Of a stretch of DNA of 64,000 bases, positions 823 to 59,155 are shown piece after piece. Made by a program: the position numbers and the translations under genes. This stretch comes from Cephalotus follicularis (Eukaryota; Streptophyta; Magnoliopsida; Oxalidales; Cephalotaceae). Under the pieces are notes generated by a model. The model searched no databases, was not told the origin of the DNA, and saw only the letters and a program-made list of their open reading frames with translations. Each line of letters opens with the position of its first letter. Position 1 is the stretch's first letter. Location: NCBI GenBank assembly GCA_001972305.1, contig BDDD01001580.1, forward strand, positions 89,039 through 153,038, read 5' to 3'.

Positions 823-2007
823 AATATTAGATATTATTATTCTGAGAGCATTTAAATTGGTCGAATACCATTTAGAATGGCTAAACCGAACCCTAGGGGT
901 ATTTCGATAATTTGAGAACACCTCTCGTTTTAACCAAGATTTTAAAGGGTCCCTGCCTTATAATGATTAGATCTTTAATATGTTAGACATATTAAGTCTT
1001 GGTGTAAAATATCGGTTATGTGGATTTTGCATTTCGTGGAAACACATAAGCTTGATCTCACTTAACCAATATTTGAAAGGTACATGAGATCACTAAAAGA
1101 GTTAGACTCTTTATGCTTGACTAGCCAGAAGGTGTCGATGTTTTTAGAAAGACGTCAATGAATTTCTTTGATAAAGACGTCGATGTCTTTTAGAAATCAT
1201 CGATGTGCTTTCATGCCACGTTACATAGGCGTCGACCTCCTTTGAAAGGCGTCGACGTCTTTGAGCAGAACGTGCTACCAGTGCACGAGCTCATTTCTTG
1301 GGCACGATTTCTCTCTCATCTCCAGCAACCATCTCCAGTTCTTGAACGTTTTAGAAATGTGGGAATCATGGCTTCGGACTCCCAGGGAGTGAAGGCCATG
1401 ATCCTAAGTGAATGAGAGATTGGGAGAGAGAATTGGAGGCTAGTTAAAAGTATTCCTGCAGAAAAATGAAAAGGGGGAGAAAAAGGTTTGAGTTTTTGCT
1501 GGGCAATTGAGAGCTCGAATTCCTCTGTAGATTGTGAGTGATTCTTCATCTGGTATACACCAAGCAAAGGCTTATCTAGGGTGGATTGATAGTTGACTTC
1601 ATTGGTCAAAATCAATACATCTTTTCTAAGCTAAGTGTGAGAGAGTGTGAGCTCATATACTTTGTGATTGTTGGTTGGATTTCTTGCTGTTCCTGAGGCT
1701 TGGAGAACATCAAAGGAAATCTACCCAAGCTCATAGCAGCAAAGTAAGAATGAGCCTTCACCCACTGGTATAATCTTTGGCCCCTCTTCTTGCCATGCTT
1801 GTGTGTCACCATTGTTTCCAATGGTGACACCAATTCAATTTAGTTGATGCTTTGGTGATCCATGTGATCTGTGGACGTGTCTTTATGGACTAGTTTTGTT
1901 ATATAGGGTGTTATTCCGCTGCCATGATTGTTTGTTTAAGTTTTATTATGCACCCTTACACCCTTTGTCCATTTTGAAATTTGTTTCGGTTTAATCTGAT
2001 TCCATCA
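593..2007 (+). mobile_element. Partial copia LTR, forward orientation
   Basis: This is homologous, in reverse complement, to the two LTRs of the copia element at 35132-44628. Shared blocks include the TATTAGATATTATT segment, the CCTTATAATGATTAGATC segment, the GTCGAC-like cluster and the final CCATCA. It ends at 2007 and no primer-binding site follows, so it is a 3' LTR, a solo LTR or a fragment. Its start lies to the left, beyond the family E LTR inserted in it. Short open frames at 1203-1833 are LTR sequence and not genes. Confidence 0.8.
1124..1265. repeat. GTCGAC-type motif cluster in the copia LTR
   Basis: Seven degenerate copies of a GTCGAC-centred motif are present, including GACGTCGATGTC near 1175 and exact GTCGAC near 1232 and 1250. 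It matches in position the clusters at 35875-36010 and 43215-43350. Confidence 0.85.
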
Positions 2008-2369
2008 TTGGATAATCATAATACATAACCAGCTTAAACAACCTTCAAATAGCAGCTCCAAAGTAGCCTTAACAGCACTCGTCCGATTGTCTCTGTCAAT
2101 CTGAAATAGTAGGGGGTTAGCCTTTGTCCTCACTCGGCTATGTATAAATACATTTTGGGATCAAGTAATGAATGACATGAAATGAATGCATTCATGATGC
2201 AGTACGTAAATAATACAGGATATACATGAATACATGTGTATAATCACAAGCAGGTATCACCCGAGGGCCACAATAACACAAGTACGGAACTATCCTCGAA
2301 GGAGCTAAATACAACGATCAGGTCACTAAGGACCCATCAAGCCAGATTAAAGTTGCTGACACCCAGGCT

Positions 2370-2710
2370 CAACAATAGGTTACTCACACAACAGTGCTTA
2401 GCAACCAAATAGGAGCCCCTAGCTACTTACCCAACAGAGCTCAGTAACCATTTCGTGGGAAAACCTAGCTACTTACTCAACAGAGTTTAGTGGCTACCTT
2501 ATATGGAACTTCCAACTGCTTTCCCAACAGAGCTCATTAGTGGAATCCCTGGCTACTTACCCAACAGAGTTTAGTAACCGAAACAAGCCATCACAAGTAA
2601 TTAATACATAATAAATACTTGCAATCAAAACATCCCAAATGGGCATTAGTCCTTTTAAACATGGTTTACCGTTTCAGCTACTCACCCATCAGAGTTTAGT
2701 AGTTATCAAT
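2370..2710 (-). repeat. Array of imperfect hairpin units
   Basis: About five units contain the pair GGCTACT...AGTAACC around a CCCAACAGAG loop, for example at 2419-2446, 2465-2493 and 2551-2579. Each can form a short stem. Spacers differ more than the stems. Confidence 0.7.
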
Positions 2711-3309
2711 ATTTCACAGTCCTTCTCAAGAAATTTATAAGTATAAAATCTTGGACCATATATATATATTTTTTCGCTCAAATATATAAGAATCATTACC
2801 AATCCTTTTCACGTAGTTAGTGTATCGTAAAATACTTGAAAATCATACATTTTAAAAATATACTCCGATCCTTCAAAATACTCATGTCCGTATAACATAA
2901 TTTTAATTATGTGAAACCGTTTCGCAATCCTTTTGGAAAATATCCATTTCCGTCATAATCCATTTTCCTAGTAATTTATTATATATAAAAACTTGTCAAT
3001 ATCACATTTGTTCAAATGTATAACTAGTCTTTGCACGGTATTTAATCCTTTGAAACTACTTATTCCGTATACATAATTTCAAGCATTTGAAATCATTTGC
3101 ACAGTCTTTTTTAGGAAATATATATATATATTTCCACACAATATTACACATTTCTCAAATCTAAATCATTTAAGAAGTCATGCGGTATCACAACAAAGCA
3201 AATCACAACAGTATTAAATGCAACCATATGCTCAAACATGCCTAAGGTCGCTTCTAGAATCGTTCCGGAGCTAATGGGTCCAAAATGGGTCAAACCATAC
3301 ATCCCAAGA

Positions 3310-3870
3310 GTAAAGACGTCAATGTCTTTCCCCAAAGCATCGATGTCTATTGCCCCAAAAGCTTCGTGGTTCATTCCCAAAGTCACAGCTTGAAACAGTA
3401 GGAATGCGTCGACGTTTTTCTGTAGGCGTCGATGCCTACGAACGAAAACCCTTAGGCGTCGACGTTTATCACAACGCATCGACGTTTAAGGTAGGAACCT
3501 TAACACGTCCTCGAGTTATGTACAAGACCTAATGCATGGCAACCAAAGACGTCGATGCCTTCCATAGACGTCGATGCTTAAGTGGTACCAGAAGGTGTCA
3601 CCACAACCAAACTCCATTTCAAAGAAGAATCCATCCTCCATTCATGCATACACATCCCAGATACACCACTTATGGCGTAATACGCACCACAGGTTATCCA
3701 TATGTATAACCAAATCATCAACCCATAAAAAGTTCACAAGTCCAGAAGCAAACGTTGCGGTTCTGCAATGTTTGGAATAGACATCGACGCTTAACCAAGA
3801 CGTCGACGTCTATCGTCTCATCGCCTAAAGACGTCGATGCTTATCACAAAAGCATCGACGTGTAAGAGTC
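3310..3870. repeat. GTCGAC cluster, main one of the family B' LTR
   Basis: More than a dozen motif copies occur in pairs about 20-40 bp apart. Exact GTCGAC occurs near 3409, 3458 and 3798, the last inside GACGTCGACGTC. Most other copies differ by CG to TG or CA, for example GTCGATG and ATCGACG. Confidence 0.9.
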
Positions 3871-4584
3871 CAGAACGCTGTCTCTTCCATACAACACCAA
3901 ACAGGGGCACAAAATCCAATTATACATGCAGTCTAACATGGAGAATTCGACATGCATACATAATCCACTTAACCAGACGTTCCTATCATAAAACAAACAT
4001 CAAAACGAACCTCAAAACAGGCATGCAATTCATGCATTTTATTCATGGCAAGACATTAGTTTGAACTCAAAGGTGTACATATACTTCCCCTACCTCTGGT
4101 TTCAAGTTAGAAACCTTGAAATTCCACCTCTTTGTGTTCCAAGGTTGTCCCGTTGCTGCAAGCCTCCAGCTCCAAGTTTCCCAAAGCTCCACTGGTCCAG
4201 CAATGGAGGAAGTGTTTATCTCTCCTCACTGTTCTCCTTAACACTCAGGTGTTTAACCAGACAAGCAGGGAAGAGAGAGCATTTATGCTAGGGAACTCTC
4301 TCCCCTCATCACTATTCCCGTTGCATGCATTTGCAGGTTCCATTTCCCCATTACTTCTCTCCCTGTTTCCTTCTTTATTTTTGATCTTTTCCTTTTTTGT
4401 TTTCTACATTTGAAGGTGAAGATGTGTGCCCTTTTTCATGCACAAGGTTGAGGACACGTTCTGTTGCATGCCTGGTAACATCCCAGCATGCATAACACGT
4501 TGCGTCTGGTGCCTGTAAAGGCCTTGGATCTCCCCTCCCTTGCACGTTATTCTGTCAGTTCATAACGTGACTGATATTCCTCTT

Positions 4585-4740
4585 AAGGACGTCGACGCCT
4601 TCTATAGATGTCGATGTCTTTTCCTTTTTCGTACAAGAGCGTCGATGCCTTCGTCTGCATCAACGTGCATGTTCATGCATTTACGTGCGCCCTTCACGCC
4701 CATAGGCGTCGACGTCTTTACAAAGACATCGATGCGTTTA
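4585..4740. repeat. GTCGAC cluster near the LTR 5' end
   Basis: Motif copies lie at about 4588, 4609, 4640, 4706 and 4725, some 200-350 bp from the LTR terminus. This is a second cluster in the same LTR, apart from the one at 3310-3870. Confidence 0.85.
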
Positions 4741-5879: not shown

Positions 5880-6270
5880 TTGGGTATCAACACAATCCTC
5901 TAGGCATTGATGCCATCACTGTAGGCATCTACTCTTCCATTCTAGGCATCAATGTGTTCACGCCAAGCTTTATCAGATACCTTGTTTAGACGTCGACGCA
6001 CTAAGCACACGTTCAGGGTGTGCATCGACGCATTGACCGTCCTCTTTAGCTCTAACAGGCTCCAGGATGGCGTTAACGCATTGTTCCATAATGTTGGTTT
6101 GGATGTCAACATGCTGGTTGCATGCCAGTGTTGGGCGTCGACGTATAACACTGATTGGCGCACAGAAATGAGAAGGAACACCCATCACGTCAAGTGGTTC
6201 TCTTTTAGGCGTCAATCTCTCATTCATAGGCGTCGACGCTATGAACGAATGAGTCGACGCATTGACGGAT
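5880..6270. repeat. GTCGAC cluster in the family C LTR
   Basis: About a dozen copies are present. Exact GTCGAC occurs near 5991, 6137, 6231 and 6250. Degenerate copies include CATCGACG and GTCAAC. Confidence 0.85.
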
Positions 6271-10254: not shown

Positions 10255-10475
10255 CAAACCGTCGACGCTTTTGACTAAAGCGACTATGCTTCGAATGGGT
10301 TAACCGTCGACGCCATATGTATTGCAAAAGGGTTGACGCTAATGCATGTGTCGAAGCTTAACACATAGCGCCTTAACCGTCGACACCTAGCACAAGAGCG
10401 TCGACGCTTAGTATCAGCGTCGACACTAAGATGCTAAGCGTTGACGCCTAACATGGAAGCCCCTACGCCTAATGC
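10255..10475. repeat. GTCGAC cluster in the family C LTR
   Basis: Exact GTCGAC occurs near 10261, 10307, 10379, 10398 and 10415, with decayed copies GTTGACGC and GTCGAAG between. Most copies read (CC or GC)GTCGAC(GC or AC). Confidence 0.9.
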
Positions 10476-12230: not shown

Positions 12231-14144
12231 AGATTGTGACGGTATAGTTATGGGATATTGGTTAAATGCTATAATATATAGGTAGTTAACCTTTCGAATG
12301 TTTTCATATGGGTGAGATAGAATTTGTAAGGACACAGTTATTGAATGGTGGTTGAGATTATTATGGAAAAAGGTATATCTCTAAATGCTAGTTTTCATGG
12401 CATGGATAATAGTGATTTTTATGAATGCATCTTACATATTGTACACATATCTGCTGCACTTCTATATGATCCTTGCATATGTATATCCTACACAACCTTT
12501 GGGTTGCTGATACATTTCATTGTAATGAAATGGAATAGGTTTAGGTTCAGCTTCAGGTCCAAGTGACGTGCAGTAGTTATCCGCCGGACATAAATCACAG
12601 AGGAAGGATCTACATCTCCTCTGACCTAACTTGTATAAATGTAGTTTTTGTAAATGTACAAATATTATATAAGAGATGTGTTTTATTTCAGCTATTGACC
12701 TACCGACTTGTGGCAGTGCTAGATATATATGTGTGTTCATGTAAAGGATATGGATGGGTTCTGCTATTGTGATATATTGTTGATTCCTCCTACGGGAGTG
12801 TGGATTGTGGATGTCACACCCCGTTTTCTATTCGCGTTAGACAAGCATATGTGGTGATATCAGTAATTGAATATATTCTAGCATTCATTTAAAAAATCAT
12901 AAAATAATATGCGGAAGCATTCAATAAGCCAGAATATAACATAAGTCATTCGCACGCATCCCATACTACGTGCGGTTACAATTCAAATAAATTATCCTTA
13001 CAAGCGGAAGTACAACATTAACGAGGTATGAACCGTTCATTACAAAACAGTACAATATCATGAAAATAACAACCTTAAAACGAAAGTAGAAGCTCTCCAA
13101 GTTTCAATAGCAATCTTCAAAAACCTTCGCTTAATCTGAAATTGTGGGGGTTAGCCGTTGTCCTCACTTGGCTAAGTAGGAAGATAAAGTATGCTAAGGA
13201 ATGTATGAATGCAACATGTATGACAGTTTATATCAAAATAACCTTTAATGAGCCAATATATAAGTACTAATGCCAAGTGTCCATAAACAGTACATATGCA
13301 AGAATACTGCACAAGGGTACAATCAATTCATCCATCAAATGGGTGTCACATGCCGCTATCTCCTAGCTCCGACTGTGCACTACCTAACTATCTCCTACGC
13401 TCCGAGGATGATAGAACAGGTAACATATACTACCGGCGTTGGCGGGTAGTTTAACAAATAAGATCTGCTCTGCAGATAAGTTTTGGAGATCTCCTGGCCA
13501 ACTCCGGGCTCCCAGGATCCCTACCGTAGTCGGTGACCACAGCCATCATTCGACCACCGGCAACAAGCACAATCAATACAAGCATTCAATAATAATATCA
13601 CATATGTCAGCAATATGCAATATAAAAGTGGTTTCTTTAGAAACATATAACAAGTCATTTATCGTACATCTCTTTGGAGGAAAACGATATCAATTCAATA
13701 ATGGTCCTCACTTGGAGAACAAACAGATGGTACCTCTCATAGGAGGAAAATCAATAATTCCTTTAAACAATAGGTTATCATTTGAAATGATAGTTGATTA
13801 TCATAATTTGGGTACATAGCTCATAGTTGGTTTCAATGATTGAAATACAAGTGGTAGTGGTGTTAAATGACACCAAACAGTTTATACTAATATGACAGTA
13901 GCATATTCAGTAATAATATCACAAATCAGTAGCAATGCAAGGATTTACAAGGATAGCATTACATAGTCAATTCATATGTAACTCTCACAAGGAGTGCGTA
14001 CATTGTTTAATTTTGGAATGTAACTGTATATGAGGCCAGGATTAACTATTCTAGTCATCCATATGGAGGCCAGGTTCATTACATTCAAAATTGAGGCCTT
14101 AACAGGACTTATCTCAGTAATTTTACCCAGGACAGTAGGCTGCC

Positions 14145-14250
14145 TTTAAGAATAGCCGGCTGCCTTGGTTGAGTAGTCGACTGCTTTTTCATGGCAGTCG
14201 ACTGGATGGGGTTAAGTAGTCGGCTACCATGAAGAGCAGTCAACTGCTTC
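14145..14250. repeat. AGTCGACTG-type motif cluster
   Basis: Copies include AGTAGTCGACTGC and GCAGTCGACTGG near 14185-14212, with decayed copies (AGCCGGCTGC, AGTCGGCTAC, AGTCAACTGC) on both sides. Confidence 0.9.
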
Positions 14251-15287
14251 GGCCCAGAAAATGCAGGCAGTAGCAGCTTGCAATTTTTCAATCTATAATA
14301 CCAATCCAATCAAACATGCAATAATGCAGAAAAGTAAACATACATGATATGCATGATCATATCTTCAATAACATATCGTTACCCCTACCTCAATCTCTAT
14401 CCCAAGATCAATTGGGTTTGATATTTCTCTTTAAAGCTTCCAAAGCCTTTTCCCAACAATCCTTCGAATCCAGCAAGTTCAATCTATGTATGCATGTTTA
14501 TGGACACATGCATTAGTACCAGTAGGTTTCAGTAAATACTCTATAACAATTAGAATTCCAACAGTAGCTTAATCATCAAGTTCCCTAAGTCTTAACTTCC
14601 ATTTAACCACTTCCTTTAAACTCTATGTCAACTATTATTCAAACTCGGATTCATTGATCTTAAGTGTGTTGATAGAAGATGCATATTTACATTTAGGGAA
14701 CCAGTAAGCATATCCTGACCTTAACATCAACTATAATCCAATCTAGAGGTTATAGTCACCATTCCACTTAATCCATTTACCAACTTCCATTTCAATTCTA
14801 GAATATGTTATCTTTAATTATGTTAACAGAAGGTATTCAACATTCTCCTAGTTACATTATCATCATAACAACAGAGAGTTCGAATTAAGGACTTACCAAG
14901 AATCCAAAGCTCCAATCTTCCTTCTTTGAGCTTTCTAATCCTGCCAATGCAAGCTCTCAATAATCTCCAGCAACTCTCCTTAATGTTCAGTGTTTCTAAC
15001 ACTAGTCTCACAACTCAACACTTGATATAAGCCTTGAATTCGTCAGAGTTCTTTAAGTCCCCTTCTCTCATCACATGTATTTGTTTTCTCTCCTCTTTTC
15101 TATCTCTCTCTCCCTTTCTCTCTTTGATTCTTGCAGGTTGCAGGTCTGAAAGTTGCAGAGGGAATAGAGGACATGCAAGCATGCCTTTTTGCATGCTCTG
15201 GCAGCTCCTGTCTCGTGTGACACCTGCCCACCATGCAATCTCCTCTTGGTTCAGTTTAACAGGCATGCACAGACACCTGTTCTGTAC

Positions 15288-15402
15288 CGATCCAGTCGAC
15301 TGTCCATAACACGCATAAGGCAGTCGACTGCTCCCCTATGACAGTCGGCTGCCCCTTCATAAACCAGACAGTCGACTTCCCCCCTGTGGTAGTCGGCTGC
15401 CA
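15288..15402. repeat. AGTCGACTG-type cluster near the LTR 5' end
   Basis: Exact copies occur at about 15293, 15322 (GCAGTCGACTGC) and 15370, with AGTCGGCTGCC copies between. Confidence 0.9.
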
Positions 15403-15822
15403 AGGGCTGTTTTAGGGTTTCTTAGCTTGTTACTTCACCAATTGTACATCCATTCATCCCAAGCAATTACCAAAAACAATTTTATAATAATTGGACATTA
15501 AATTCAAATGAGTGCACATTTTATTAATCATTATTACAATGTACATGAATTGAATTTGCGGTTATTACAGTTGAGGGCTGAGCCCATATATAAATTGTGT
15601 TTTCCTTACATGGGGCATAGGTCCGATAAACGGATACTACGTGCCCAATTTTCGGGAGATTATAAGAGTTACAATATATATGAATTGATTATTCTGCTTA
15701 CATGGCTGATTGAAAGTTTTAAATTTATAGCACTTTTTGGAGTATGATATGAATGAATTGATCGAATGGATGGAATACCACGTGTCGGGTCGTGGGAGTT
15801 CCCCCACGGTTCGGGGCGTGAA

Positions 15823-22500: not shown

Positions 22501-22734
22501 GCATAGTGTGGTTGTAATACCCTAAATCTATGACTTCATGTTATGGTCATATTTTATGTTTTTGCCTTATGTTATGTACTATGTGTTGGTGTAACGCCCA
22601 GGGTTTTCGTTAATGTGTAATGTTGCTTTTCCAATGTAATTTTGCACCTTGTGTTAATGGGAACCATGTTTATCCTCTTTTGTGTGTTGAAAGTTGCAAG
22701 AAAAGTGTGTTGGTGTGTTTTCTGTGCAGGGGGC

Positions 22735-22765
22735 AGTCGACTGCCGAGGTAGTCGACTGCTAGGT
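22735..22765. repeat. Paired AGTCGACTGC motifs
   Basis: GCAGTCGACTGCC and TAGTCGACTGC lie 17 bp apart, about 150 bp from the LTR start. Confidence 0.95.
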
Positions 22766-23264
22766 GCCAGATAGCACACGTGCTGTCAGGCCTGGTGTGA
22801 CAAAAGTGGGTGAGTTTGGCTTTATATGACAGAAGATAGAGAGAGAGGTCGAGTTTCTCCATAAAAACACAAGCTTCTCCCTCCATCTTCATTCTTTTTC
22901 ATAGAGAGTTCAAAGAGAGTGTGAAAGAGTGAAGAAAAGGGAGTGAAAGTGTGTGTGTGTTGTGGATCCAAGGAGCTTTGTGTTGAACCGTGGGTTGAAG
23001 CTTCGACCAGTGGAGGAACCGAACCAGTGGGAGTTACTGGATGAGTTGGGGAGTGCAAAAGCCTCTGTTTTGGACTTAAAGAGGTGGATTACAGCTCCTA
23101 ACTTGGAGTTCTAAGGTAGGGGAAAAGTCATTTTTGCACTTAATTTCAACTGTTAATGTTTTCCATGAAATGAAATGCATGTTTATGTTGTGTTGTGAGC
23201 CTGGAATGTGTTGTTGCATAAATGTGCTGTTTTGGGTTGAGTTGGGTGTGTGTTGTGGCTTGTG

Positions 23265-24817: not shown

Positions 24818-24958
24818 TTAATCATCGACGCTTTCATTGGAACCGTTGACGCTTTGGTGTTGTGGAACACGTCGACGCCTAAGCTTATGACATTGACGCT
24901 TATGGATTTAAAAGGTTTAACCGTCGACCCTTTTTGCATGCCGTCGACGCCTAAGTCA
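24818..24958. repeat. GTCGAC cluster 1 of the chromovirus 5' LTR
   Basis: Exact copies lie at about 24869, 24923 and 24943, with decayed ATCGACGC, GTTGACGC and ATTGACGC between. It matches 47330-47465 in the 3' LTR. Confidence 0.9.
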
Positions 24959-36983: not shown

Positions 36984-36996
36984 ATATCCCACTTGA
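36984..36996 (-). promoter_or_regulatory. Copia polypurine tract
   Basis: Minus-strand TCAAGTGGGATAT abuts the 3' LTR, in the usual form for plant copia elements. Confidence 0.85.
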
Positions 36997-37014
36997 CACT
37001 CAAGTCATGAACTC

Positions 37015-37655
37015 CTATAGCCTAGACCCATCGTCCCACGATGATGTTCCAGAGCCTTGGCGCCCATTGCCTTGGTCAATGGATCTGCTGTGTTCTACTT
37101 TGAGTAGACCATATCAAGCTGTATATCTCCCCTAACAATAATCTCACGGATCAAATGATAGCGCCGCTCAATGTGTTTGGATCACTGGTGAGACCGCGGT
37201 TCCTTGGATTGTGCTACAGCCCCATTATTATCACAGTGTATTACAACTGGACTAATAATGGATGGAACAACTCCTAGTTCAGTAACGAAATTACGCATCT
37301 ATACACACTCCTTGGTGGCATCTGAGGCTGCTATGTACTCGGCTTCTGTGGTAGAATCTGTAATAGTCACTTGCTTAGAACTGCGCCAGCTCACAGCTCC
37401 ACCATTAAGTACAAAAACGTACCCTGAGACCAATTTGTGATCATATGGATCACTATCAAAACTGGAGTCTGTGAAGCCCTCCAATTTCAGCTCACTATCT
37501 TTTCCATAGATCAAGAACATATCCTGAGTCCTACTAAGGTACTTTAGGATTCCCTTGACCACTTCCCAATGCTTCTCACCAGGATCAGACTGAAAATGAC
37601 TTGCCATACCCAGTGCAAGTGCAACATCAGGCCTAGTAGATAACATGGCATACAT
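37015..37655 (-). pseudogene. Copia RNase H
   Basis: The frame reads MYAMLSTRPDVALALGMASHFQ, then LEGFTDSSFDSDPYD (acidic residue of the active site), VSWRSSKQVTITDSTTEAEYIAASDA, then, past a stop at 37296, CDNNGAVAQSKEP and a further stop. It ends ~30 bp before the PPT. This is the expected C-terminus of copia pol, with three stops. Confidence 0.9.
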
Positions 37656-38550
37656 GATCTACTGCCGAAGCATAAGGTATCAAACTCATGCGTGCTCTCT
37701 CTTCAGATGTCTGAGGAGACATCTTTTGAGAAAGGTGAATTCCTTCACCTATTGGCAATAGGCCTCTCTTGGAATTCTTCAAGCTAAACCTCTTCAGCAC
37801 CTTGCTGATGTACTGGCTTTGGGAAAGCCCAAGCAACCTAATGGATCTATCCCTGAAGATCATAATATCTACTATATAGGTGGCTTCTCCCAAATCTTTC
37901 ATGGAAAAATTCTTAGTTAGCCATATCTTTGAAGACTGTAACATCCCTACATCATTCCCAATGAGTAGGATGTCATCTACATATAGCACTAAGAAAGTGA
38001 TACTAGGTCCCTCTTGCTTTCGATAAACACAGGGCTCATCTACATTTTTAACGAAGTCAAAAGCTTTGACTGCTTCTTCAAAACGTAGATTCCAGCTACG
38101 AGATGCTTGCTTTAGTCCATAGATGGACCGTTCGAGCTTGCACACCATGTGCGGGTGCTCGGAAGATGTAAACCCCTCGGGTCGTGACATATAAATATCC
38201 TCTTCAAGACGCCCATTTGAGAATGCCATCTTGACATCCATTTGCCATATCTCATAATCATAATGAACGACAATAGGAAGCAAAATCCTAATGGATTTAA
38301 GCATGGCGACAGGTGAGAAAGTCTCAGTATAGTTGACTCCATGTCGTTTCCTATACCCTTTCACCACTAATCGAGCTTTATAAGTCTCGATTTTTCCATC
38401 TGCATTCATCTTCTTCTTGAAGATCCATTTGCAACCAATAGACACTATGCCTTCGGGTGCTTCAACCAAATTCCATACTTGGTTGGAGTACATGGAATCC
38501 ATCTCGGATTTCATGGCTCCTAACCATGCTTTAGATTTAGTGCCTTGCAC
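37633..38550 (-). pseudogene. Copia reverse transcriptase
   Basis: A 305-residue open stretch has the RT fingers and palm: CKWIFKKKMNADG (residues 40-52), YKARLVVKGY, TFSPVAMLKSIRILL, WQMDVKMAF, YGLKQASRSW. The catalytic LYVDDILLIGND is near residues 190-201. Within the open stretch no stop interrupts it, and the YVDD box is kept. K replaces the usual N in DVKMAF(S/L)NG. A frameshift near its end separates RNase H. Confidence 0.93.
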
Positions 38551-38556
38551 TGCCTC

Positions 38557-39768
38557 TCAGTAGCTAGAAGGCTCGTCATCTTCAATGACATTTATCTCAT
38601 AAGTACCATCAATGAGGAAACCATACCTCTCAGGAGCTAATGGGATTCTGCCTGATCTCCTCAAAGGAGCTTTGCCTAACTGAGAACCATTCTCAGTCTG
38701 AGATCCAATCTCAACTGTGTCTGTTGAAGGTCTAACCTCAAACTCCTCCATCTTCTGTGTGGTTTCTACTTGTGGAAACTCCTTGAGTTCCACCTTACTC
38801 CCACTGTTTCCTTTAAGAAGGTATTCCTTCTCTAGAAACACAGCATTTCGCAAAACAAATATCTTTTGATCGCTAAGGTGGTAAAAGTAGTATCCTTTTG
38901 TTTCTTTAGGATACCCCACAAACCTGTAACGGTCCGACCACGCTTCCAGCTTATCTGAGTCAAGCCTCTTGACATAATCCAGACAACCCCAAACCTTCAA
39001 ATGGTTCAGGCTGGGTTTCCTCCCTGACCATACCTGGTATGGAGTAGAAGACACAGATTTTGAAGGAATCTGATTCAAGATATAAGCAGCTGTATCTAGG
39101 GCATAACCCCAGAGATAGGTAGGAAGGTCAGTAAAAGACATCATCGATTGAACCATGTCTAACAAAGTCCGATTCCTCCTTTCGGACACACCATCATGCT
39201 GTGGTGTTCCAGGAGGAGTCCACTGAGATAGAATTCTGAGTCTAGCATCACTAAGATGACCAAGTCTACAATGCCAGGTATAGGTTTTATTTAACTCAGT
39301 TTCTCTTTGTCTTTTCTTATTACTTTCCTCTATGGATAGGACTTTAGATTGTGTAGTATTTAAGACAAATAATCCATTGTTGATAAAACCATTATCGACA
39401 CAACCATTGTCAGAATAAACAAAACATTGAATGTCTTGGAATCTGAGCTCCAAGCCCAAATTACATAAGTTTGAAACACTTATAATATTCCTTACAACGT
39501 TTGAAATGAAATAACATGGATCAAGTGTCAATACATAACAATTACATAAAGTAATATCATAAATCCCTACAGCTTCAGCAATGATCCTAGATCCATCCCC
39601 AAGCCGTAAGTCAAAGTCTCCAACTCTAAGCTTTCTAACTTTTCTTAGTCCCTGCAACGAATTGCAAAGGTTAGTTCCACATCCAGTATCCAATACCCAT
39701 GAAGAACTACTATTCAAAGCTAGATTTAGTTCAATCATGAACATACCTGATGTACTTGCACCATGCAA
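38557..39768 (-). pseudogene. Copia protease and internally deleted integrase
   Basis: The protease signature WVLDTGCGTNLC is at residues 34-45 of this 403-residue stretch. The GAG-pre-integrase motif TWHCRLGHLSDARL follows near residue 163. The next residues jump to WTPPGTPQHDGVSERRNRT. The zinc-binding Cys pair and the first two acidic residues of the DDE triad are therefore missing; only the Glu (SERRN) is left. The C-terminal part is intact up to the hinge before RT. The element could not integrate by itself. Confidence 0.92.
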
Positions 39769-39799
39769 AACATCAGAAGAGACTCCAGCACTAGTAACT

Positions 39800-40653
39800 C
39801 GACAATCCTTTTTCTAGTGTCCGGTCTTACCGCACTGGAAACAAGCACCTTCAGCAGCTAACTTCTTCAATCAATATTTGGCAACACTCCCACTAGCTCC
39901 AAGCTTCCCCTTCTTCTTCTTTTGCTTCTTCTTACCCTTGCCTTTTGTGTTGACAGGCATGAGCATGCCCTTCCCTTTATAGGAAGACGAGGCACTACCC
40001 TTTACTTGGGCAGACCTAGAAGATGGAAGAAGTAGGGAGTGGCTCTTTGACTTCCCAGAGTCAAAATTGGCCTCAGCCGTCCTCAACATAGCAATCAGCT
40101 TAGACAGAGTCACCTCTATCTTGTTCATGTGAAAGTTCACCAAAAATTGTGAGAACGACTTAGGAAGGGACGTCAAAATAAGATCCACATATAGATCATG
40201 GTCCATGACAAACCTTAACTGAGCCAGCTGCTCAATCATGTCTATCATCTTCAATCCATGCTCATGGATTGAAGCTCCCTCTAACATCTGAGCCTTAACG
40301 AGTTTACGTGATAGATTGAACCTTTGTGTCCTAGACTCAGCTCCATACATCTCCTGGAGATGGAGTAGTATAGCAGATAAGGTCTCAATCTTCTCATTAT
40401 GACGCTGAAGCTCAGGTGTCATCCCAAGAAGGGAAAGACACCTAGCCTGCTCGTCATCTTCTAGCCATTTGGCTAGTCGCTCACTCTCTTCAGGAGTCGG
40501 ATCTCCACCCAGTGAAGGAGGCCCCCCAATCATCACATGGGACATTTTATTTTCCGTAAGGACGATCTTGAGGTTTCGGTGCCAATCGTTGAAGTTGGGC
40601 CCCTCAAGTTTGTTTGTCTCTAGAATGCGGGATATAGCAGATTGTAAAGCCAT
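39800..40653 (-). pseudogene. Copia Gag with CCHC knuckle
   Basis: The frame begins MALQSAISRI at 40653. It has the UBN2-type Gag core (LEGPNFNDWHRNLKIVL near residues 16-32, then the LxxMYG region), a Lys-rich tail KGKGKKKQKKKKGK near residue 240, and a stop after 260 residues. In frame beyond it lies the knuckle CFQCGKTGH-stop-KKDC near 39800-39840. All C and H residues are kept but a stop falls after H. It would encapsidate element RNA. Confidence 0.92.
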
Positions 40654-40830
40654 TTTTATAGCAACCTAGATAAGGAAATATAAAGTTGAGTCAGCATCTA
40701 TTCCATTTCAATCCCCACTTGGTCTTTAGTGCTTATGGTTCCTCCCACTATTCTAATCGTATCCCATACCCCCATATGGAACTCGAGAAGTCTAACTTCC
40801 TAGTGGGGATTGAAATCCAACGCAACCATA

Positions 40831-41140
40831 TTATAGCCTTAGCTAGGGCATGACAAACTATAATATGTCCAATGGGTAGGCTTTCTTGCCAATTTGCATC
40901 CAATACAAGATCCAATCATAAAATTCGGCCTTAGATTCAATATGGCCTTAGCTAGGGCATGACAAACCATCAGAATCTTGATAAGTCCAGTACCCACAGT
41001 TTTCATTGGAATGCACTAGTTTTAACACCCACACGTAGGCGTGTCCAAGTGCTAAAACATAGCCACCCTTTGCGGAGCCCAAAACCGACGTTAAAATAAT
41101 ATCCCCAAGTCAACAGCCTCAGCTAGAGCATGACAAACCA
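40831..41140. repeat. Three dispersed 25-30 bp repeats in the leader
   Basis: CTTAGCTAGGGCATGACAAA recurs at 40831-40860, 40941-40970 and, with CTCAGCTAGAGCATG, 41111-41140. Confidence 0.9.
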
Positions 41141-41927
41141 ACAACCAAGGAACACTACTCAACGAAAATTGTGGAAGGCCACGGGGAACCACTCCATGGG
41201 TTCCTACGTTAAGACTTATTATTAAAATGAGGGAATTTACGGTCTCATGTTTCAAATACCATGCTATTAATTAATTCATTGGTTGTATTAGCCAATTCCA
41301 ATTAATTATGGCTTAGCATGCAAGACGTGTATCATATGCACCTTGGACATATTTCTAAAATATGTCAATGGATTGGCAAGGACATTAGTAGTAGTGACTT
41401 GAGCCCAAAATCACTACTAGGTCATCCTAGGTGTAAAGATTTAAATATATTTATTACAACAATAACCATGCATACATGGCCTTCAAAAGTCTTCTACTCC
41501 ATTTCTCCTTTCCTCCATCTCTCCTTGTAAGGTCTTCTTTTACATAAAAGTACTTTACATTTTCAAAAGGAAAAATACATTTTTTAAAAATTACAAGGAA
41601 AAATAACAAAAGTAAGGAAAAATAAATGGTGCACGCAGGCATCTTATTACAGACCTTTAAAATAATAAATAAATAAATCCATCCATGCAAGAAAACCACA
41701 AACTAGGTCTATGTCCTTCTTGGGCCATCCATTGTGCATAAGACTTATATAATATCAAATATTATAAAACACAAATAAAACAAATGTCATAAATAATAAC
41801 CAATTATACAATTTAATATAAGGATTGTTAACTGATCAAACTCCCACTAAATCAAGCAATGATTTTTGATTTTCTAAGAGCCAAAATGTATAAAATCCAA
41901 TTTTATTAAAAATAGTTTTTTTATAAA

Positions 41928-42175
41928 GAGGTCGACGCTTCCCAGAAGGCGTTAACGCATTTCACAAAAAAATGTTGAAAAAGGCGTCGACGTTTATCAA
42001 CAACGTCGACGCGTTTCCTGGGAATAGATGAACAAGACATCGATGCATTCCAAAAACATCGACACGTTTCATGAGAAAATGAACAAGACATCGACGTCAA
42101 TCAAGAACGTCGACGCGTTTCCTGGGAACAAGAACAAGACATCGACGTCTATCAAGAACGTCGACATCTATAACC
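41928..42175. repeat. 51-bp tandem array carrying GTCGAC motifs
   Basis: AACAAGACATCGA starts at 42031, 42082 and 42133, exactly 51 bp apart, with an older, diverged unit before. Each unit holds two motifs, one ATCGACGTC-like and one ACGTCGACGCG-like. Exact GTCGAC occurs near 41933, 41986, 42005, 42110 and 42161. Confidence 0.93.
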
Positions 42176-42450
42176 CCTTGGGCAGTTTCTGCATTTTGAA
42201 AAATGCAAAAAATAATGGTTTAGACTTTGGCATTCCAATCTGGCAATCCAAACTGCACTATGCATGTTCCAAAAATAATTCAAAACACATTATATCAAAA
42301 TCACCAGGTCTTAAACACAATGAAATCCAATTTCATGCAATTTTCATTAAGGCACTTTGAAAATCTAGTTCGATCATAAAACACATCCATTAATTAAACC
42401 AGTAATCAGTACATCATCTAAGGCATTAATTCAATCAGGGATGATGTGGG

Positions 42451-42464
42451 ACGCTCTGATACCA
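42451..42464 (-). promoter_or_regulatory. Copia primer-binding site
   Basis: Minus-strand TGGTATCAGAGCGT, one base from the 5' LTR, complements initiator Met tRNA. Confidence 0.93.
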
Positions 42465-42465
42465 C

Positions 42466-44628
42466 TGATGGAAACGGATAAACCGAATCCGGAGCCAAAA
42501 ACGGACTTAGGCATATAGAGTGTAGAACAATACAAAAACATACAAATCATGGCAGCGGAAGAACACCCAATAAAACAAAAGGCAGCCCATTATGGCATGT
42601 CCACAGACCACATGGATCACCACATCATCAACAGAATTGAATTGGTGTCACCATAGCATACAATGGTGACACACAAGCATGGCAAGAAGAGAAGGACCAA
42701 GAGCTATACCAGCGGGTGAAGGCTCCTTCTTTCTTTACTGCTACACGCGTGAGAAGACACCAAACACGTTGCTTCAAAAATCCTTGGTACAGAAGCTACT
42801 CCAACCAGCAAGAACCAAGAATGAAGTATAAAAACTCTCTCTCTCTCACTAAGCTTAGAAAAGGTAATTTGATATGGACCAATGAAGTCAATAATCAATC
42901 CACCATAGATAAGCTCTTGCTTGGTGTATTTCAGATGAAAGGAACACACTCTGCAGAGAGAATATCGAAGTCACATTGCCCAGCAAAACTCTCCTCCTTT
43001 TTTTTTGCCATTTTCTGCAGAAAATGCTTATAACTAGCCACCTTCTTCTCTCTCCCACTCTCCCATTCACTTAGGATCATGGTCCTCACTCCTAGGGAGT
43101 CTATGGCCATGATCCCACGTTCCCATAACATGCAAAAATGGGAGATGGCTGCTGGAGATGAGAGAGAAAACGTGGCCACGAAGTAAGCTCGTGCATAGGT
43201 TGCACGTTCTGCTCAAAGACGTCGACGCCTTCCAAAGGACATCGACGCTCATGCAATGTGGCACTAAAACACATCGACGCTTTCTAAAAGACATCGACAT
43301 CTTTAAAAACGTTAAGCATCGACGTCTTTCTAAAAGTCATCGACGCTTTGTCTGGCCAGTGAAGCATTAAGAGTCTAACTCTTTTAGTGTTCTCATGTAC
43401 CCTTCGAATATTGGTTAAGTAAGATCAAACATATGTGTTTCCACAAAATGCAAAATCCACATAACCGATATTTGACACCAAGACTTAATATGTCTAACAT
43501 ATTAAAGATCTAATCATTATAAGGCAGGGACCCTTTAAAATCTTGGTTAAAATAAGAGGTGTTCATAAAATACCGAAATACCCCTAGGGTCCGGTTTATC
43601 CATTCTAAATGGTCCTTGACCAATTTAAATGCTATCAGAATAATATCTAATATTATCCAAATGGAAAAATTAATCTAATTAATTTTCCCATACACCTCAT
43701 AAACCCTAGACTTTCTAAGTCGTCGGTTCACATGTACTATAATCCCTTGTCATGCTTGGCCCCGATTGAGGTCTAGTGTAAGGATATATGTCAACCCTAG
43801 ATGATACCTCAATGGCTAAAATATCTGATCATTACTAGGACCTTTGGTAAACTCTCTGGAAATATCATTTCCAGTCTACCTTAACCTTGGCCAAGGATTT
43901 CATAAGTCCAAAGTATAATCAGACCATAATAGGGCCAATCACATTCGCTCAGGTGTGACAATGGCATTTTACGCACTCACTTATATTCGTATAGATTCGA
44001 TAATACCCAAAGACCACCCGATTGCCAGCCCTACGCAAGGACTGGGTAAGGTGGAGATCAAACCATAACCGTCTCCATACAATATAGACTAGTCGCTCAG
44101 GTCTAAGGATCAGACGATTTTGAGAACTCGCTAAGTGATGATCACTTATACACAACCGGAGCAAGTAGGAGTCACTATTCACACGAGAATAATGACTATC
44201 CAAATAGTGTCTCCTACGCAGGTCCAGTTCAGTGTACACGCTCCCAGCATGCACCCCGTATTTTTCCTAGTGTCCAACACAAATGGTAGTTAGAGAATCC
44301 ATCCTCCAATTCCATGAGTAGGCAACATACGTGCCAGTCTATCCGGTTCACTAATGCCCAAAAAGTGAACCTATGACTTGGAACTAATTTGACATAAGGA
44401 ATAAGGTAACCTATCTCACAGCCTCCATGCTAGGCATCCAACCATATGTCATGGCATCACAAGTGTAAGTAGGTAAATAACAAACTACTTCAATTAAGTG
44501 ATAAAACACAAATGATATTGCCATAACAAAGTAGCACACATCATATATAAGGAATAAGATTGTTTCATACAAGATAAGATATAAAATGATAACCCATCTA
44601 ATGGCTTGACGGGTCACTAGATCTAACA
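42466..44628 (-). repeat. Copia 5' LTR, 2163 bp
   Basis: It runs TGATGGAAACGG...AGATCTAACA on the + strand. It has a GTCGAC cluster at 43215-43350 and about 304 bp (44008-44311) absent from the other LTR. Confidence 0.95.
43215..43350. repeat. GTCGAC cluster, copia 5' LTR
   Basis: Seven copies are seen. One is exact GTCGAC (near 43220, GACGTCGACGCC) and four are ATCGACG. It is better kept than the 3' LTR copy. Confidence 0.88.
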
Positions 44629-47212: not shown

Positions 47213-47329
47213 TGTAATACCCCGTTTCTATGCCTACATGTTATGGTCATATTTTATGTTTTTGCCTTCTGTTGTGTACTCTGTGTTCGACCATTCGATT
47301 TTGTTTTGGAAATTCTTTTGTTTTGGGGC

Positions 47330-47470
47330 GTTAAGCGTCGACACTTTCATTAGAACCGCTGATGCTTTGGTGTTGTGGAACACGTCGACACCTAAGCTTA
47401 TGACATTGACGCTTATGGCTTTAAAAGGTTTAACCGTCGACGCTTTTTGCATACCATCGATGCTTAAGTC
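47330..47470. repeat. GTCGAC cluster 1, chromovirus 3' LTR
   Basis: Exact copies at about 47336, 47384 and 47437, with decayed ones between. Confidence 0.9.
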
Positions 47471-48069
47471 GAGTTTCCTATTTTGTCTGGATGGTGACTT
47501 ACATTTGGAAAGAGAGATTTCAGCCATTATTTTATTACCTGGATTTCCTTATTTATTTGCACGCGTTTTTGCATATTACGAAGGTGTAATCGATCAGATA
47601 TTGGGCATTGATATACACATTTTCTCAATTAAAAACTCAGATTACATTCTATCTTTAAAAACTACTCCATTTGCATTGTTTACAAACAAAGAAAACCAGA
47701 AACACCATTTTTCAGAAGCTTTCTCTACTGTTTTGTCACCATCCTCAGGTTTTATATTATACCGGTTTTGTTTTCATATGTATATACTGCTATCATTGAT
47801 AAACATAAGTTTATTTCATGCAAAATCATATTATTAATCCATGCAAACTGTTAACTCACTAGAAAATATAATTTCATGATTTCTATTGATGATTATAACT
47901 TGCAACTTGTATATTTATGCATCAAAAGTTATACTGATGTTTACATGCATAGAAAACATGTTTTAGAACTCATATGTATCACTGTTTTAATGATTCATGT
48001 AAAGAAAATTGACTTATATTCATGATTTTTGCAAAAATACTGCACTGGGTCTCATAATTTATACGTAAA

Positions 48070-48292
48070 GCGTAGTAAACATCGACGCCTTTGTGTATAA
48101 ATTTAGTTTTAAAATGCATGTATGGGTCTAACCATTCACACCTATTCTTTGAACGTTGCCACCTTCCACTGTGTAATATATGTCTTTGTGTTGACGCTTT
48201 GCTAAGTGCTTTGTTCCTTCATGCACTAAAACCATCGACGCCTATAGTTAAGCGTCGCCGCTTTTGGTCCATAACGTCGACGCTTTCTCTGG
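48070..48292. repeat. GTCGAC cluster 2, chromovirus 3' LTR
   Basis: One exact copy (near 48277). Others read ATCGACGCC, GTTGACGC and GTCGCCGC. Confidence 0.88.
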
Positions 48293-50189
48293 CAGTTTTG
48301 ATAATTACGTTTTTATGTTATGTAATATTTGGGCTTAAATGTTTAGGTCTTGATATCGTCTTTGGCGGAGGTTAGGATACCCCTAGTGTGCTTTTGTTTT
48401 GTATTCGGATTTGTTTAGATTATTCGAATGGCTAAGGTACAGATGTATTCCCTTCTTGGCTATTCTTTGATTTATTTAAAATGGATTCAATATTGCTTTT
48501 GTTACAGACTTTTTGTATTTGATACTGCTTTTTGGTTTATGAAAATGTAAGGATTTTGTTATCGGATGATTGTTTCGATTTTTTTAAAATTTGTTTTATT
48601 ACATTGATAATAAAGTTTAATATTACTGATTTGATAATTAAAGTATGACTTTCACCTTTGGAAGTATGCTAATTTTGATTAAAAGAACATGACTTTCACT
48701 ATCGAGGTACGTTAAACGGGTAAGACTTTCACCTTCGGAAGTATACTAATTTTGATTAAATAAACATGACTTTAATTTTAGGAAGTATGTTAATTTTCGG
48801 ATACATATATGATTAATGTTTTCGGATATATTCAGAAATTGTTTAGAAAATCTGTTATGTTTTAAATTGTTTTGGAATAAAACAATATTTTGGCATAACA
48901 ACATACAGAGAAAAATAAACCTATGAGGCCTCATAGGCATGTTCTTTGGCACAGAGGACAGGACACCTACCATGGCGGTGTGATTTGTCTATGACATCTA
49001 TTTTTATATATATCCTGAGGGTAGGATATGGATCTATTTGAGGCGTATGAGTCGAATCTAATTATTATCGGATTTGGATTCAGGGAAATGATTATGTAGT
49101 ATTGTACACGATTTTCCATCTGGCATGTGGGCCTTGCAAACCCCTTGTCTATGTATATGTATATCGGATCTCTATTATGGAATTATGAAATCGGATAAGT
49201 TATGATATTTTGCTATGATTTTGCAAATTCGAAAAATTTGAATATTTGAGTGTGAGAAATTTTATAACTATTTTATTTAAATATTATGCTTTACATTAAT
49301 GAATATTGAACCATGCTATTCTCTGATTTTAAAGTTCAGATATTCGTTTATCTTTAAGATTTTGTTTACTGTTTATATTCCTTATCCGTAGTAAGGTTTG
49401 CTTAGCCGCGTTTTTGTTTCCATGCGGCATGTTATCAGGAGTATCAGGGAAATGTGTGAGAGTTGTCCACCATATATCTGAGGATCAATTAGAAGTTAAT
49501 CCATTCTTATGGCTTCTGTAGTGTTATGACCGTGTGTAGGTCAATCCTTTAAACAGTATTATGATTTTTGGATTTGGATTTCGGTTTATGATTTTTCAGT
49601 TTCATATTTTATATGTTATCAGTTTCTCTTTAAACCACCACGTTATTTGAATAAAGTTCAGTATCATGTCCTAATATGTTTCTGTTTAGTTTTGATAACT
49701 GTTCCTGTAAGCATTCCCGCCATCGAGGGTTTTACAGTGGTGTCCTTGCCATCTCCTGGCCCCTAAGGCACAACCTGCCATTAGCATAAGTGATAACCTC
49801 CGTCACCGGACTAACAGCGTAACAATCACAATCGATCAATTCATTCAATTATGTTCCAAGTAGTTTATAAATTGATAAACGATTGGAATCATATACACAT
49901 TTGGATATATATAAAATAATCCTTTCCAAAATCATCATCAAGTAGTTTATATGTAATAAAATACTTGCCAAAAACATTTATTCAAAATATGTATTCGTCT
50001 TTGAAACCCGTTTCAAACTATCAAAATATAATATTTCGTGCAAAACATCAGTTGTGATAACCATAATTACAATTATCTAAAATGTTAAAAACACTTTAGA
50101 AAACATATATGTTTCAATCCACAATCCAGTTCATAGCAATATGCAATGCAAACATATGCTCCAATGCAACCAGGTTCTCGGCGTCGCAC

Positions 50190-50490
50190 CTATGTCTACT
50201 ACTTCCTCTAAGGGTCGATTATTTCCTTTAATAGTCGGCTGTTTCCTCTAACAGTCAGCTGTTTCCTTGAGTAGTCAGCTACTTCCTTCAGTAGTTGACT
50301 ATTCTGGGTCGAGTAATACATGAGCAGTCAACTGTTTTCCTTCAACAGTTGACTATTTCTGTGAAAAAGTACCCATACGATCCACTGAGTCATATCTTCC
50401 TGCCATATCTGGCGAAATAACACATGCACAGTCGACTGTTTCTGTTTAACAGTCGGCTGTCTACCTTGAACAGTCTGATGTTTTCCTTCA
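50190..50490. repeat. AGTCGACTG-type cluster in the family B LTR
   Basis: About 13 copies in a repeated frame with TTTCCTT(C/T) spacers (AGTCGGCTG, AGTCAGCTG, AGTTGACTA). One is exact CAGTCGACTG near 50430. Confidence 0.9.
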
Positions 50491-57281: not shown

Positions 57282-57395
57282 GTTAACTCATTTTCTCCAC
57301 ATAATTACAAACCCCTTTCTCTTTCTATATATATATAATTTTTTTTCTTTCTTAACTCATTTTCTCCACATAATTACAGACCCCTTCCTCTTTCG
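57282..57395. repeat. Direct duplication, 70-bp step
   Basis: TTAACTCATTTTCTCCACAT and the following ~25 bp occur at 57282 and 57352. Confidence 0.9.
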
Positions 57396-57399
57396 CTTT

Positions 57400-58870
57400 C
57401 TCTAGATTTTTCTTCTGCCCATAAATTTTCTCTCCATCCTTCCTCTCTCTCATATTGTTTTCTTCTCTTTTATGCTTTATTGTCGCACCAACCATCAAAT
57501 CACACTTCCAACACCACCTATGCAGTACGCACAACCCTTACACTCCAACCCATCCTACACAATCATCGCATAACTTCTTCCCCACTTTTGTAAAAATTAC
57601 GACAACAATTACTTGCATCCCCCATTGATGTCTACTTTAATTAGTCAGTAACAATTCTTTGGCCTCTAACTTTGATATATAATCATTACATAGTTTTGGT
57701 TTGATGGAATCCATTGTTTCTATTCAATTCAACAACCCGTTCATTATTAATCTCTCTCATAAAAGCTTATCTGACGATCACCCAATACCTGAGGCCAGCC
57801 TAGGAAATGTCAACTAGATTGAGCTCGTTTTTTCGATATCATCTCAAAGTGAGACTTCTAACTATTGTTGTCCTATTAGTTTTAATTGCTTTATTTTATT
57901 TTTAATAAAAACATTAAACTGTTAATATAACACTTTGGAACTTGACTTTTAACAATTTTATATTTATGCACATGTTTCAATTATTGACGAGAACTTTAGT
58001 TCGATATGATTTTAATTATGTTTTAAGAAAATTTGAGTTTTCACATCAGAATTTTAATTATGAGAAATGTTGAATATTTTTTAATGTTTTATGAATATAT
58101 GTGACATGCGGCATTGAGGGATTGTTTCAGCTTTTGGGGTCAGGCCTTTAGGGCCTCTCTACACGTATATGATTGAGATATTGCACGTGGTAAGACGGTA
58201 CCTCATTACCTATGTTTGCACGTGATACGACGGTATTACATTGCCTTTGTGATTGAACATCTCGCTCCTATGTTCAGATCACATGTATACTGATATGTTT
58301 TCATGTGAAATCTCAAGTTTATGCACGTTCAAATATGCTCCAGAAAAACTGCAGATTTCCTTTCAAGTACATTTAATTAAGTTTATTTCTTGAAAATTTC
58401 TATATTCAGCTAAGTATTTATTATTTAACAAGCTTGACATGTTTATCAAATTTATTAATATTTAAAAGATTTTACTTGTTTTAAGATTTATAACCATAAA
58501 TTCAAACGATGCACTTTTAATTATTTAGATTTTACGAGCAAACAATAGACCTATAGTAAGTTGTTTTACTCACAAGTCTTTCAGACTAGCCCCTCTTCTC
58601 CCAAAAGTTTTGCAGGTCAGTCAAGGTCAGACCACGAGGGTATGCCTACCAGAGTTTCAACACTTGCATTTCATCCACAACATTATCATGTGCATCATAT
58701 CATCGCCATCAACTTTTACTTTTTGTTTATATATTTTTGGTTATGTACATTTATTTAAATTATGAACCTGAAGGCCTGGTACCTAATTTTGTTTTTATGT
58801 CTTGAACTGAGGTTGTAGCGGAGTGTTCATGAATTTTGAATGTTTTAAATTTATACCTCAAGTGCACGGT
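57400..58870. mobile_element. LTR-like AT-rich DNA, unassigned
   Basis: There is no coding region. A 35-bp step duplication of GCACGTG-TA-GACGGTA lies at 58183 and 58218. The region 58060-58620 has the look of a chromovirus LTR, but I see no terminal TG...CA pair or TSD. Confidence 0.4.
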
Positions 58871-58899
58871 TGTGTAGTAACGGGTCGTCAGCTAGGAAA

Positions 58900-59155
58900 C
58901 AAGTTAAATCAATTTTAATCTATCCAACCTAAGTGAAGTATGCAAAATTGAGGTTGATTATGAAAAACTACTCCTTAAACAAGCAAATTAAACTACTGAA
59001 TTGAAATAGAGAACAAAGGCGTCACGCTTTGTCACTCAGCGTCGACGTGAATAAACAAAAGCACATAATGCTTCGACAGAATGCGTCGACGAAAATTTAA
59101 GAAAACACTTAAAACGTCAACGCTTACAAGGTAGGCATCGACAAATTTGTCAATC
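58900..59155 (-). repeat. GTCGAC motifs joined to an Athila reading frame
   Basis: Motif copies at about 59007, 59040, 59083, 59115 and 59140 lie within the last ~45 codons of the protease-like frame. Exact GTCGAC occurs at about 59040 and 59083. Sequence left of 59000 is non-coding. Confidence 0.8.

Follow-up and report, generated by a model that had tools for sequence, protein, structure and literature searches.

Phased GTCGAC-type arrays as predicted protein-binding elements in copia and gypsy retrotransposons of Cephalotus follicularis

We analysed clusters of the palindrome GTCGAC in a 64,000-base stretch of the Cephalotus follicularis genome (contig BDDD01001580.1, positions 89,039 to 153,038; hereafter the window), where they lie in long terminal repeats (LTRs) and a 5' leader of LTR retrotransposons. 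The region from 22513 to 49736 has a nested history: a solo LTR and a second insertion entered the 5' LTR of a Ty3/gypsy element (gypsy B), and a Ty1/copia element entered its pol region, where it now sits between two pol pieces (34300-35130 and 44630-46688). The LTR of a second gypsy type (gypsy A) lies at 12812-15569. Sites are termed A/T-flanked or C/G-flanked after the bases on either side of the hexamer, and tandem structure was called with Tandem Repeats Finder (TRF). The elements and arrays are as follows.

35132..44628, minus strand: Ty1/copia element with target-site duplication GATTG
35132-36983 and 42466-44628, minus strand: copia LTRs, with the gag-pol coding stretch at 40665-37314 and a motif like a primer-binding site (PBS) at 42454
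41931..42165, minus strand: copia leader array of five exact GTCGAC sites and RTCGAY variants, C/G-flanked
43221..43226, minus strand: exact site in the copia 5' LTR, followed by a degenerate period-20 array at 43264-43349
22513..30193, plus strand: gypsy B 5' LTR, split by the solo LTR (22590-24771) and another insertion (26997-29948)
22590..24771, plus strand: solo-LTR-like insertion inside the gypsy B 5' LTR, TGTAACGCCC...GTGTGACA, target-site duplication GTTGG, A/T-flanked
23317..23583, plus strand: oriented AGYCGACT array, pattern >=>>>>>, with TRF period 21 at 23408-23542
47213..49736, plus strand: gypsy B 3' LTR, which begins TGTAATACCCCG after a purine tract; sites at +124, +171, +223 and +1063
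12812..15569, minus strand: gypsy A-type LTR with two A/T-flanked arrays, its ends set by similarity; same family as the copies in sampled stretches L013, L015, L020 and L024
15295..15398, minus strand: array 1 of the gypsy A-type LTR, spacings 28, 21, 27 and 21, pattern ==<=<
14176..14227, minus strand: array 2 of the gypsy A-type LTR, two exact sites and one GTCGGC variant
10261..10424, no strand assigned: C/G-flanked array of five exact sites, element not delimited
5992..6258, no strand assigned: C/G-flanked cluster of four exact sites, element not delimited
3408..4713, no strand assigned: C/G-flanked sites at 3408, 3458, 3802, 4591 and 4708, with one-base variants in between
1231..1256, no strand assigned: two sites at 20-bp spacing; the surrounding sequence resembles the copia LTR, on the opposite strand
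33181..33259, no strand assigned: C/G-flanked array of period 20-21, with GTCGGC or GTTGTC forms in the unit
50194..50295, no strand assigned: degenerate A/T-flanked period-20 array found by TRF
59041..59090, no strand assigned: pair of sites adjoining a gypsy gag-protease remnant (59137-60443, minus strand)

The window holds 52 exact GTCGAC sites, close to the roughly 50 counted by eye in an initial annotation, whose expectation of fewer than ten also agrees with the 5 to 9 sites predicted from base or dinucleotide content (8.8 from base composition, 5.2 from an order-1 and 5.4 from an order-2 Markov model). Across 300 dinucleotide shuffles the mean was 5.2 and the maximum 13. Higher-order models built from the window give larger expectations (19.2 at order 3, 35.8 at order 4) because they already hold sub-words of GTCGAC. 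Among the 64 six-base palindromes it shows the largest excess (tenfold); GACGTC comes second (21 versus 5.2), perhaps through overlap with GACGTCGACGTC. Clustering is equally evident: 38 pairs of sites lie at most 120 bp apart, against a maximum of 1 in the 300 shuffles and 16 in 2,000 random placements of 52 sites. At gaps of up to 150 bp, 40 of the 52 sites form 13 clusters of at least two and 12 are singles, so that the some 20 clusters first reported are reached only if singles are counted. Many one-base variants had also been reported, and there is an excess (190 variants, where shuffled sequences average 139.5 and the highest of 50 is 162), which is modest overall and strong at phased spacing. 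The proposed non-coding location holds, with one site (59377, the last in the window, which the initial annotation had missed) inside a coding match when 14 retroelement open reading frames (ORFs) were used as tblastn queries, a set that is not an exhaustive annotation. Delimited elements contain 29 of the 52 sites and 23 lie outside them. As the array at 33181-33259 carries GTCGGC in its repeat unit, a pure GTCGAC count misses arrays.

The enrichment extends across the whole genome. In the assembly (1,577,397,061 bases, 9,746 contigs), two GTCGAC sites separated by N9-30, a spacing of 15-36 bp, occur at 213,413 places, against 3,180 for the backwards control, and CAGTCGACTG occurs at 197,377 places against 939. 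We also sampled 19 other 10-kb stretches (182,408 called bases) at fixed rather than random positions, a 20th providing only 93 bases. These hold 90 sites, and GTCGAC ranks first among all 4,096 six-mers by deviation from an order-1 Markov model (90 versus 14.0, with the satellite part of L013 dropped). Density outside the window is thus far above the order-1 Markov expectation, and extrapolation from 90 sites in 182 kb would put the genome total at roughly 780,000. Among the matches listed, phased triples of GTCGAC also occurred in contigs of viruses and in genomes of bacteria and archaea; we ascribe these to chance.

Arrays lie inside the solo LTR at 22590-24771, the gypsy B LTR and the LTR of a gypsy A element in L015. 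In the latter element a PBS follows the 5' LTR; there are ORFs for gag and pol (Pfam Retrotrans_gag, RVP_2, RVT_1 and RNase H) and a 3' LTR of 2,512 bp (7279-9790), preceded by a purine tract and bearing arrays near +225 and +1110. We had considered that the array was merely a neighbour of this 3' LTR, and rejected this since the purine tract places it inside a longer LTR. The 5' LTR of gypsy B carries C/G-flanked arrays at 24871-24948 and 25578-25778. In the copia element the array lies in the leader instead, about 290-520 bases downstream of the PBS, with a 51-bp internal tandem structure. No target-site duplication was seen around the gypsy A-type LTR at 12812..15569. The LTRs of gypsy A (L015, 7279-9790) and gypsy B (47213-49736) did not align with each other when compared, yet their arrays start at comparable positions (about +120 to +245 and +1060 to +1130) and differ in flank class, as if the class had switched in place. 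Arrays are not universal, as a copia element in L021 (3210-9890, target-site duplication AACTA) has no GTCGAC inside.

Pooling the window and the 19 stretches gives 142 sites, and the distances below 70 bp between them are 16 bp (1), 19-22 (31), 28 (4), 37 (1), 40-43 (20), 44-56 (19) and 62-63 (9); the ranges 23-27 and 29-36 bp are empty. Genome-wide, 7,726 of the 213,413 places at 15-36 bp have spacings of 23-27 bp (backwards control, 443), a small share because spacing peaks at 20-22 bp. With asymmetric sites included, nearest spacings in the A/T-flanked class are 20 (10), 21 (33), 22 (5) and 27-28 (6), plus 10 others between 16 and 69; those of the C/G-flanked class are 19-22 (22), 30-34 (9) and 41-52 (18), plus others. 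Two turns of B-DNA span 21 bp, and proteins bound to units of 20-22 bp would thus align on one face of the DNA.

Flanking bases reveal two classes of site, with A..T next to GTCGAC in 57 of the 142 sites, C..G in 45, and mixed or half forms in the remainder. Symmetrised flank profiles are informative within about 8 bases of the centre and hardly beyond. The C/G-class unit is built around CGTCGACG with WARR...YYTW flanks, and its one-mismatch neighbours are GTCGAT or ATCGAC in 14 of 22 cases, whereas those of A/T sites are GTCGGC or GCCGAC in 17 of 25. We considered the ATCGAC and GTCGAT forms as binding tolerance in the C/G class, but they are better explained by decay, because the CpGs flanking the core decay about like other CpGs (334/476 kept versus 391/600 in the copia leaders described below). 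In addition, one array (L003, 1490-1725) mixes A/T-flanked sites with a C/G-class stretch (ACATCGACGTC).

Aligned within one LTR family, the A/T-class site is oriented and reads CAGYCGACTR. On the sense strand, the slots of five gypsy A copies have the consensus CAG[T19/C8]CGACT[G11/A15/T1] over 27 of 30 cells, with single exceptions elsewhere and with gapped or poorly matching cells left out of the count. The forms AGCCGACT and AGTCGGCT do not mix within clusters: all nine clusters with at least two asymmetric sites are one-directional, and adjacent phased asymmetric pairs comprise six GCCGAC-GCCGAC, six GTCGGC-GTCGGC and no mixed pairs. Where the direction of the element is known, the sense strand carries GCCGAC; these are seven arrays from gypsy A (L013, L015, L020, L024 and the window) and from the solo LTR at 22590. 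Genome-wide, GCCGAC also forms a large non-palindromic class: same-direction CAGCCGACT-N11-13-CAGCCGACT pairs number 19,914 and 20,167 on the two strands, 40,081 in all (controls 124 and 111), against 866 back-to-back AGTCGGCTG-N10-13-CAGCCGACT pairs (control 2). One-mismatch variants at phased spacing match RYCGAC on at least one strand in 50 of 84 cases, versus 110 of 502 far from sites, and the commonest forms at phased spacing are GTCGAC, GCCGAC and ATCGAC. Given this polarity, the palindrome is the most conspicuous variant of an RYCGAC element, and not the whole unit as initially taken. Derivation of GTCGAC from GCCGGC by decay was rejected on counts (CAGCCGGCTG 0 and GCCGGC 8, versus GTCGAC 142).

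The initial annotation had described one motif array common to unrelated elements, and this extends genome-wide to a Ty1/copia leader and several types of Ty3/gypsy LTR. It named descent of all clusters from one ancestral LTR as an outcome that would speak against it; the 35 multi-site clusters examined do not collapse to one family. With cores unmasked they form groups of 15 and 13, largely by flank class, and 7 singles; with cores masked, single linkage yields 13 groups, the largest of 13 clusters. Many gypsy arrays then still group through similar flanks or spacers, in part over short stretches and in part via nested neighbours, and the copia leader array aligns with no other cluster. Tandem gain is directly visible: a two-unit segment of 48 bp separates two gypsy A copies from two others, and TRF finds period-20/21 and period-51 arrays in the window. 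Judged from these alignments, arrays grow by tandem duplication inside the elements, and repeated capture, as initially suggested, is not needed for their growth. Masked grouping and tandem gain together suggest that gypsy arrays are partly inherited by shared ancestry, and that the copia array represents either an independent gain or an exchange too old to see.

Conservation of the cores was compared with that of their surroundings in three families. In five diverged gypsy A copies, chosen for having sites and with L020b and L009 dropped, cores are 83.7% identical and the two adjoining bases on either side 86.8%, compared with 62.3% for spacers and 58.4% for flanks; of the central CpG cells 25 of 28 are retained, against 3 of 13 in other CpG columns. 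We also aligned 40 young gypsy copies (38 plus two L020 copies; the best 40 scored of 5,560 candidates). Here private-to-shared variants number 20:3 in 36 core columns and 142:100 in 438 others (Fisher p=0.007), and deviations of all kinds affect 16 of 480 core CpGs versus 31 of 399 other CpGs (p=0.004). Private deviations run in the opposite direction (10/480 versus 2/399, p=0.076), leaving the idea that core CpGs are protected from deamination after insertion unsupported in this family. The clearest contrast comes from 40 copia leaders (39 plus the window copy; the best 40 scored of 3,058 candidates), in which the central CpG is kept in 224 of 238 cases versus 391 of 600 other CpGs (p=9e-21) and 334 of 476 flanking CpGs (p=4e-15). 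For gypsy B, with 22 copies (20 fetched of 40 scored, from 1,577 candidates, plus the two window copies), the values are 68/86 and 204/336 (p=0.0015). As copies and columns are not independent, these p-values serve as guides. Taken as a whole, the comparisons point to selection acting on the core in transposing lineages; the signal is clear for the copia elements and moderate for both gypsy families.

We propose that the clusters are probably arrays of a protein-binding cis-element for a host activator, carried in the LTRs and 5' leader of many LTR retrotransposon families. The unit would be an RYCGAC-type core, set either in CAGYCGACTR (A/T class, oriented, and on the sense strand where it can be oriented) or in a C/G-flanked context, and repeated mostly every 20-22 bp so that bound proteins would sit on one DNA face. 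Arrays would lengthen by tandem duplication within an element, and spacers would drift as cores and spacing are retained in transposing lineages. A host DNA-binding activator on the arrays would drive transcription of the element, and sites would be kept because they aid its multiplication. The initial suggestion of a host factor thus agrees with what we consider the best explanation. If such an activator acts here, a CBF/DREB-like AP2/ERF factor is the best named candidate, tentatively put forward and with a weak to moderate case.

Several observations weigh against this proposal. The extrapolated number of sites, some 780,000, could titrate a host factor. The symmetric form AGTCGACT (57) outnumbers the asymmetric forms (37), so that most sites are symmetric; orientation relative to the element is based on only two LTR families, and the genome-wide polarity comparison leaves out face-to-face (convergent) pairs. 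Spacing is less strict in the C/G-flanked class than in the A/T class, and the 19 pairs at 44-56 bp form a looser group. As for conservation, the five gypsy A copies were picked for their sites, slots were set by exact sites, and copies were those nearest to one query. The young-family p-value rises to 0.074 if shared variants must occur in at least three copies, and to 0.083 if counted by shared-variant columns; private-to-shared variants show no contrast in the copia family (12:15 versus 212:171, p=0.32), and in gypsy B the central CpG is kept no better than flanking CpGs (130/173, p=0.54). Finally, the typical flank of the dehydration-responsive element (DRE), the CBF/DREB target, is RCCGACNT, which the A/T-class flank, CGACT followed by G or A, does not resemble.

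A broader reading, which we regard as unlikely though worth stating, is that one trans-acting system, possibly derived from a transposon, serves many LTR retrotransposons. Copia and gypsy elements would then have gained arrays separately, the two flank classes would reflect paralogous or switched specificities, and the arrays would be shared platforms for activation or anti-silencing. A rival explanation, with a somewhat lower probability, follows the VANC proteins of VANDAL transposons: a protein of some transposon would bind the arrays, remove methylation and be shared in trans by copia and gypsy elements. VANDALs are Mutator-like DNA transposons that carry VANC themselves. In L015, ORFs of at least 110 amino acids comprise gag, pol, one further frame (6388-6768) and two short ones, the last three without a Pfam match; the frame at 6388-6768 matches the terminal part of the pol region in the window, and every ORF in the copia leader is 110 amino acids or shorter. 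No extra gene was thus recognised in the L015 gypsy interior or the window copia, the rest of the genome not having been searched, which argues against a self-encoded VANC-like factor. Additionally, private core CpG mutations in the young family are not fewer than elsewhere, so no lasting methylation protection is visible there. On the other side, the arrays here are tandem, non-coding, one-directional and of two classes, and VANC targets are reported as dense, same-orientation, non-coding motifs, grown in tandem and of two types, with VANC6 motifs found also in the unrelated AT9TSD1 (PMC5735166).

Arrays may also have no function. Related LTRs would then have inherited ancient tandem repeats, and slippage, gene conversion or biased mutation would have preserved the cores. 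Tandem growth is visible, many gypsy arrays are distantly homologous and several constraint tests are weak, all of which favour this reading. We nevertheless consider it improbable, since cores and phase outlast spacers, the copia central CpG is far better kept than its neighbours, the unrelated copia has the same core, and the sites are GTCGAC rather than products of GCCGGC decay. A function in RNA is rated slightly lower still. Neighbouring palindromes would pair in the transcript, forming hairpins for dimerisation, packaging or processing; four array stretches do fold strongly (z -3.4 to -7.5) and asymmetric sites lie on one strand, but any palindrome array folds well, and a phase of 20-22 bp is what duplex DNA would favour. 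Neighbouring asymmetric sites are moreover identical in direction and not complementary, both in the sampled clusters and genome-wide, which weakens the case for a hairpin between them. Least probable is a host repressor site or a centromere- or kinetochore-type box marking elements for silencing or chromosome organisation, which would suit the very high copy number and wide spread, but lineages that transpose should lose a silencing site rather than retain it, and the one satellite seen, a 163-bp unit in L013 (37-5046), has no GTCGAC.

That satellite has 30.8 copies with 82% matches and directly adjoins a gypsy A-type LTR. A perfect tandem duplication of 175-176 bp at 472-822 of the window, being 100% identical, is probably young. 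The reverse transcriptase of the copia element has its best named match in Dionaea muscipula (69% identity), and L026 contains a host-gene exon, DnaJC2-like.

If a host activator does act on the arrays, a single regulatory site will have been recruited and kept by unrelated retrotransposon superfamilies, to the point of topping the six-mer profile of a 1.6-Gb plant genome. Whether a shared host or anti-silencing factor drives parallel transposon expansion would then be testable. Such a system would also bear on how a host handles hundreds of thousands of decoy sites, and on how transposon enhancers evolve by duplication with helical phasing. A literature search on the motif, on shared palindromic LTR arrays and on the suspected clade returned no description of this kind among the best-ranked matches.

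Three known systems come close. The core of the cold-responsive C-repeat/DRE (CRT/DRE) is GCCGAC, given for barley as (G/a)(C/t)CGAC and bound by a DREB and several ERF proteins (PMC3602543), and RCCGAC is the core in CBF/DREB target promoters (PMC3602543; PMC5578212). The barley form covers GTCGAC, GCCGAC and ATCGAC, all found here; the differences are the phased arrays in transposons, the other flanks and the predominance of symmetric GTCGAC. VANC21 and VANC6 target motif arrays lie in VANDAL transposons, with motifs YAGTATTAY and AGTTGTCC/AGTTGTAC (PMC5735166; PMC10398659). Dense same-orientation motifs in non-coding transposon DNA, tandem growth and two types recur in our arrays, although most sites here are symmetric, and whereas VANDALs are DNA transposons encoding their own factor, the delimited array carriers here have copia or gypsy genes. 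A parallel to a host activator is offered by ONSEN/COPIA78, which, like other Brassicaceae COPIA elements, carries heat-responsive elements in its LTRs; these elements were reportedly strengthened by duplication of a proto-site, were gained in several families and were conserved over time in ONSEN (PMC5059998). Our arrays share with them short, here putative, host-factor-type sites in LTRs, growth by duplication, presence in several families and conservation. They differ in the RYCGAC core, in longer arrays phased at about 21 bp with two flank classes, and in having both copia and gypsy carriers and hundreds of thousands of sites.

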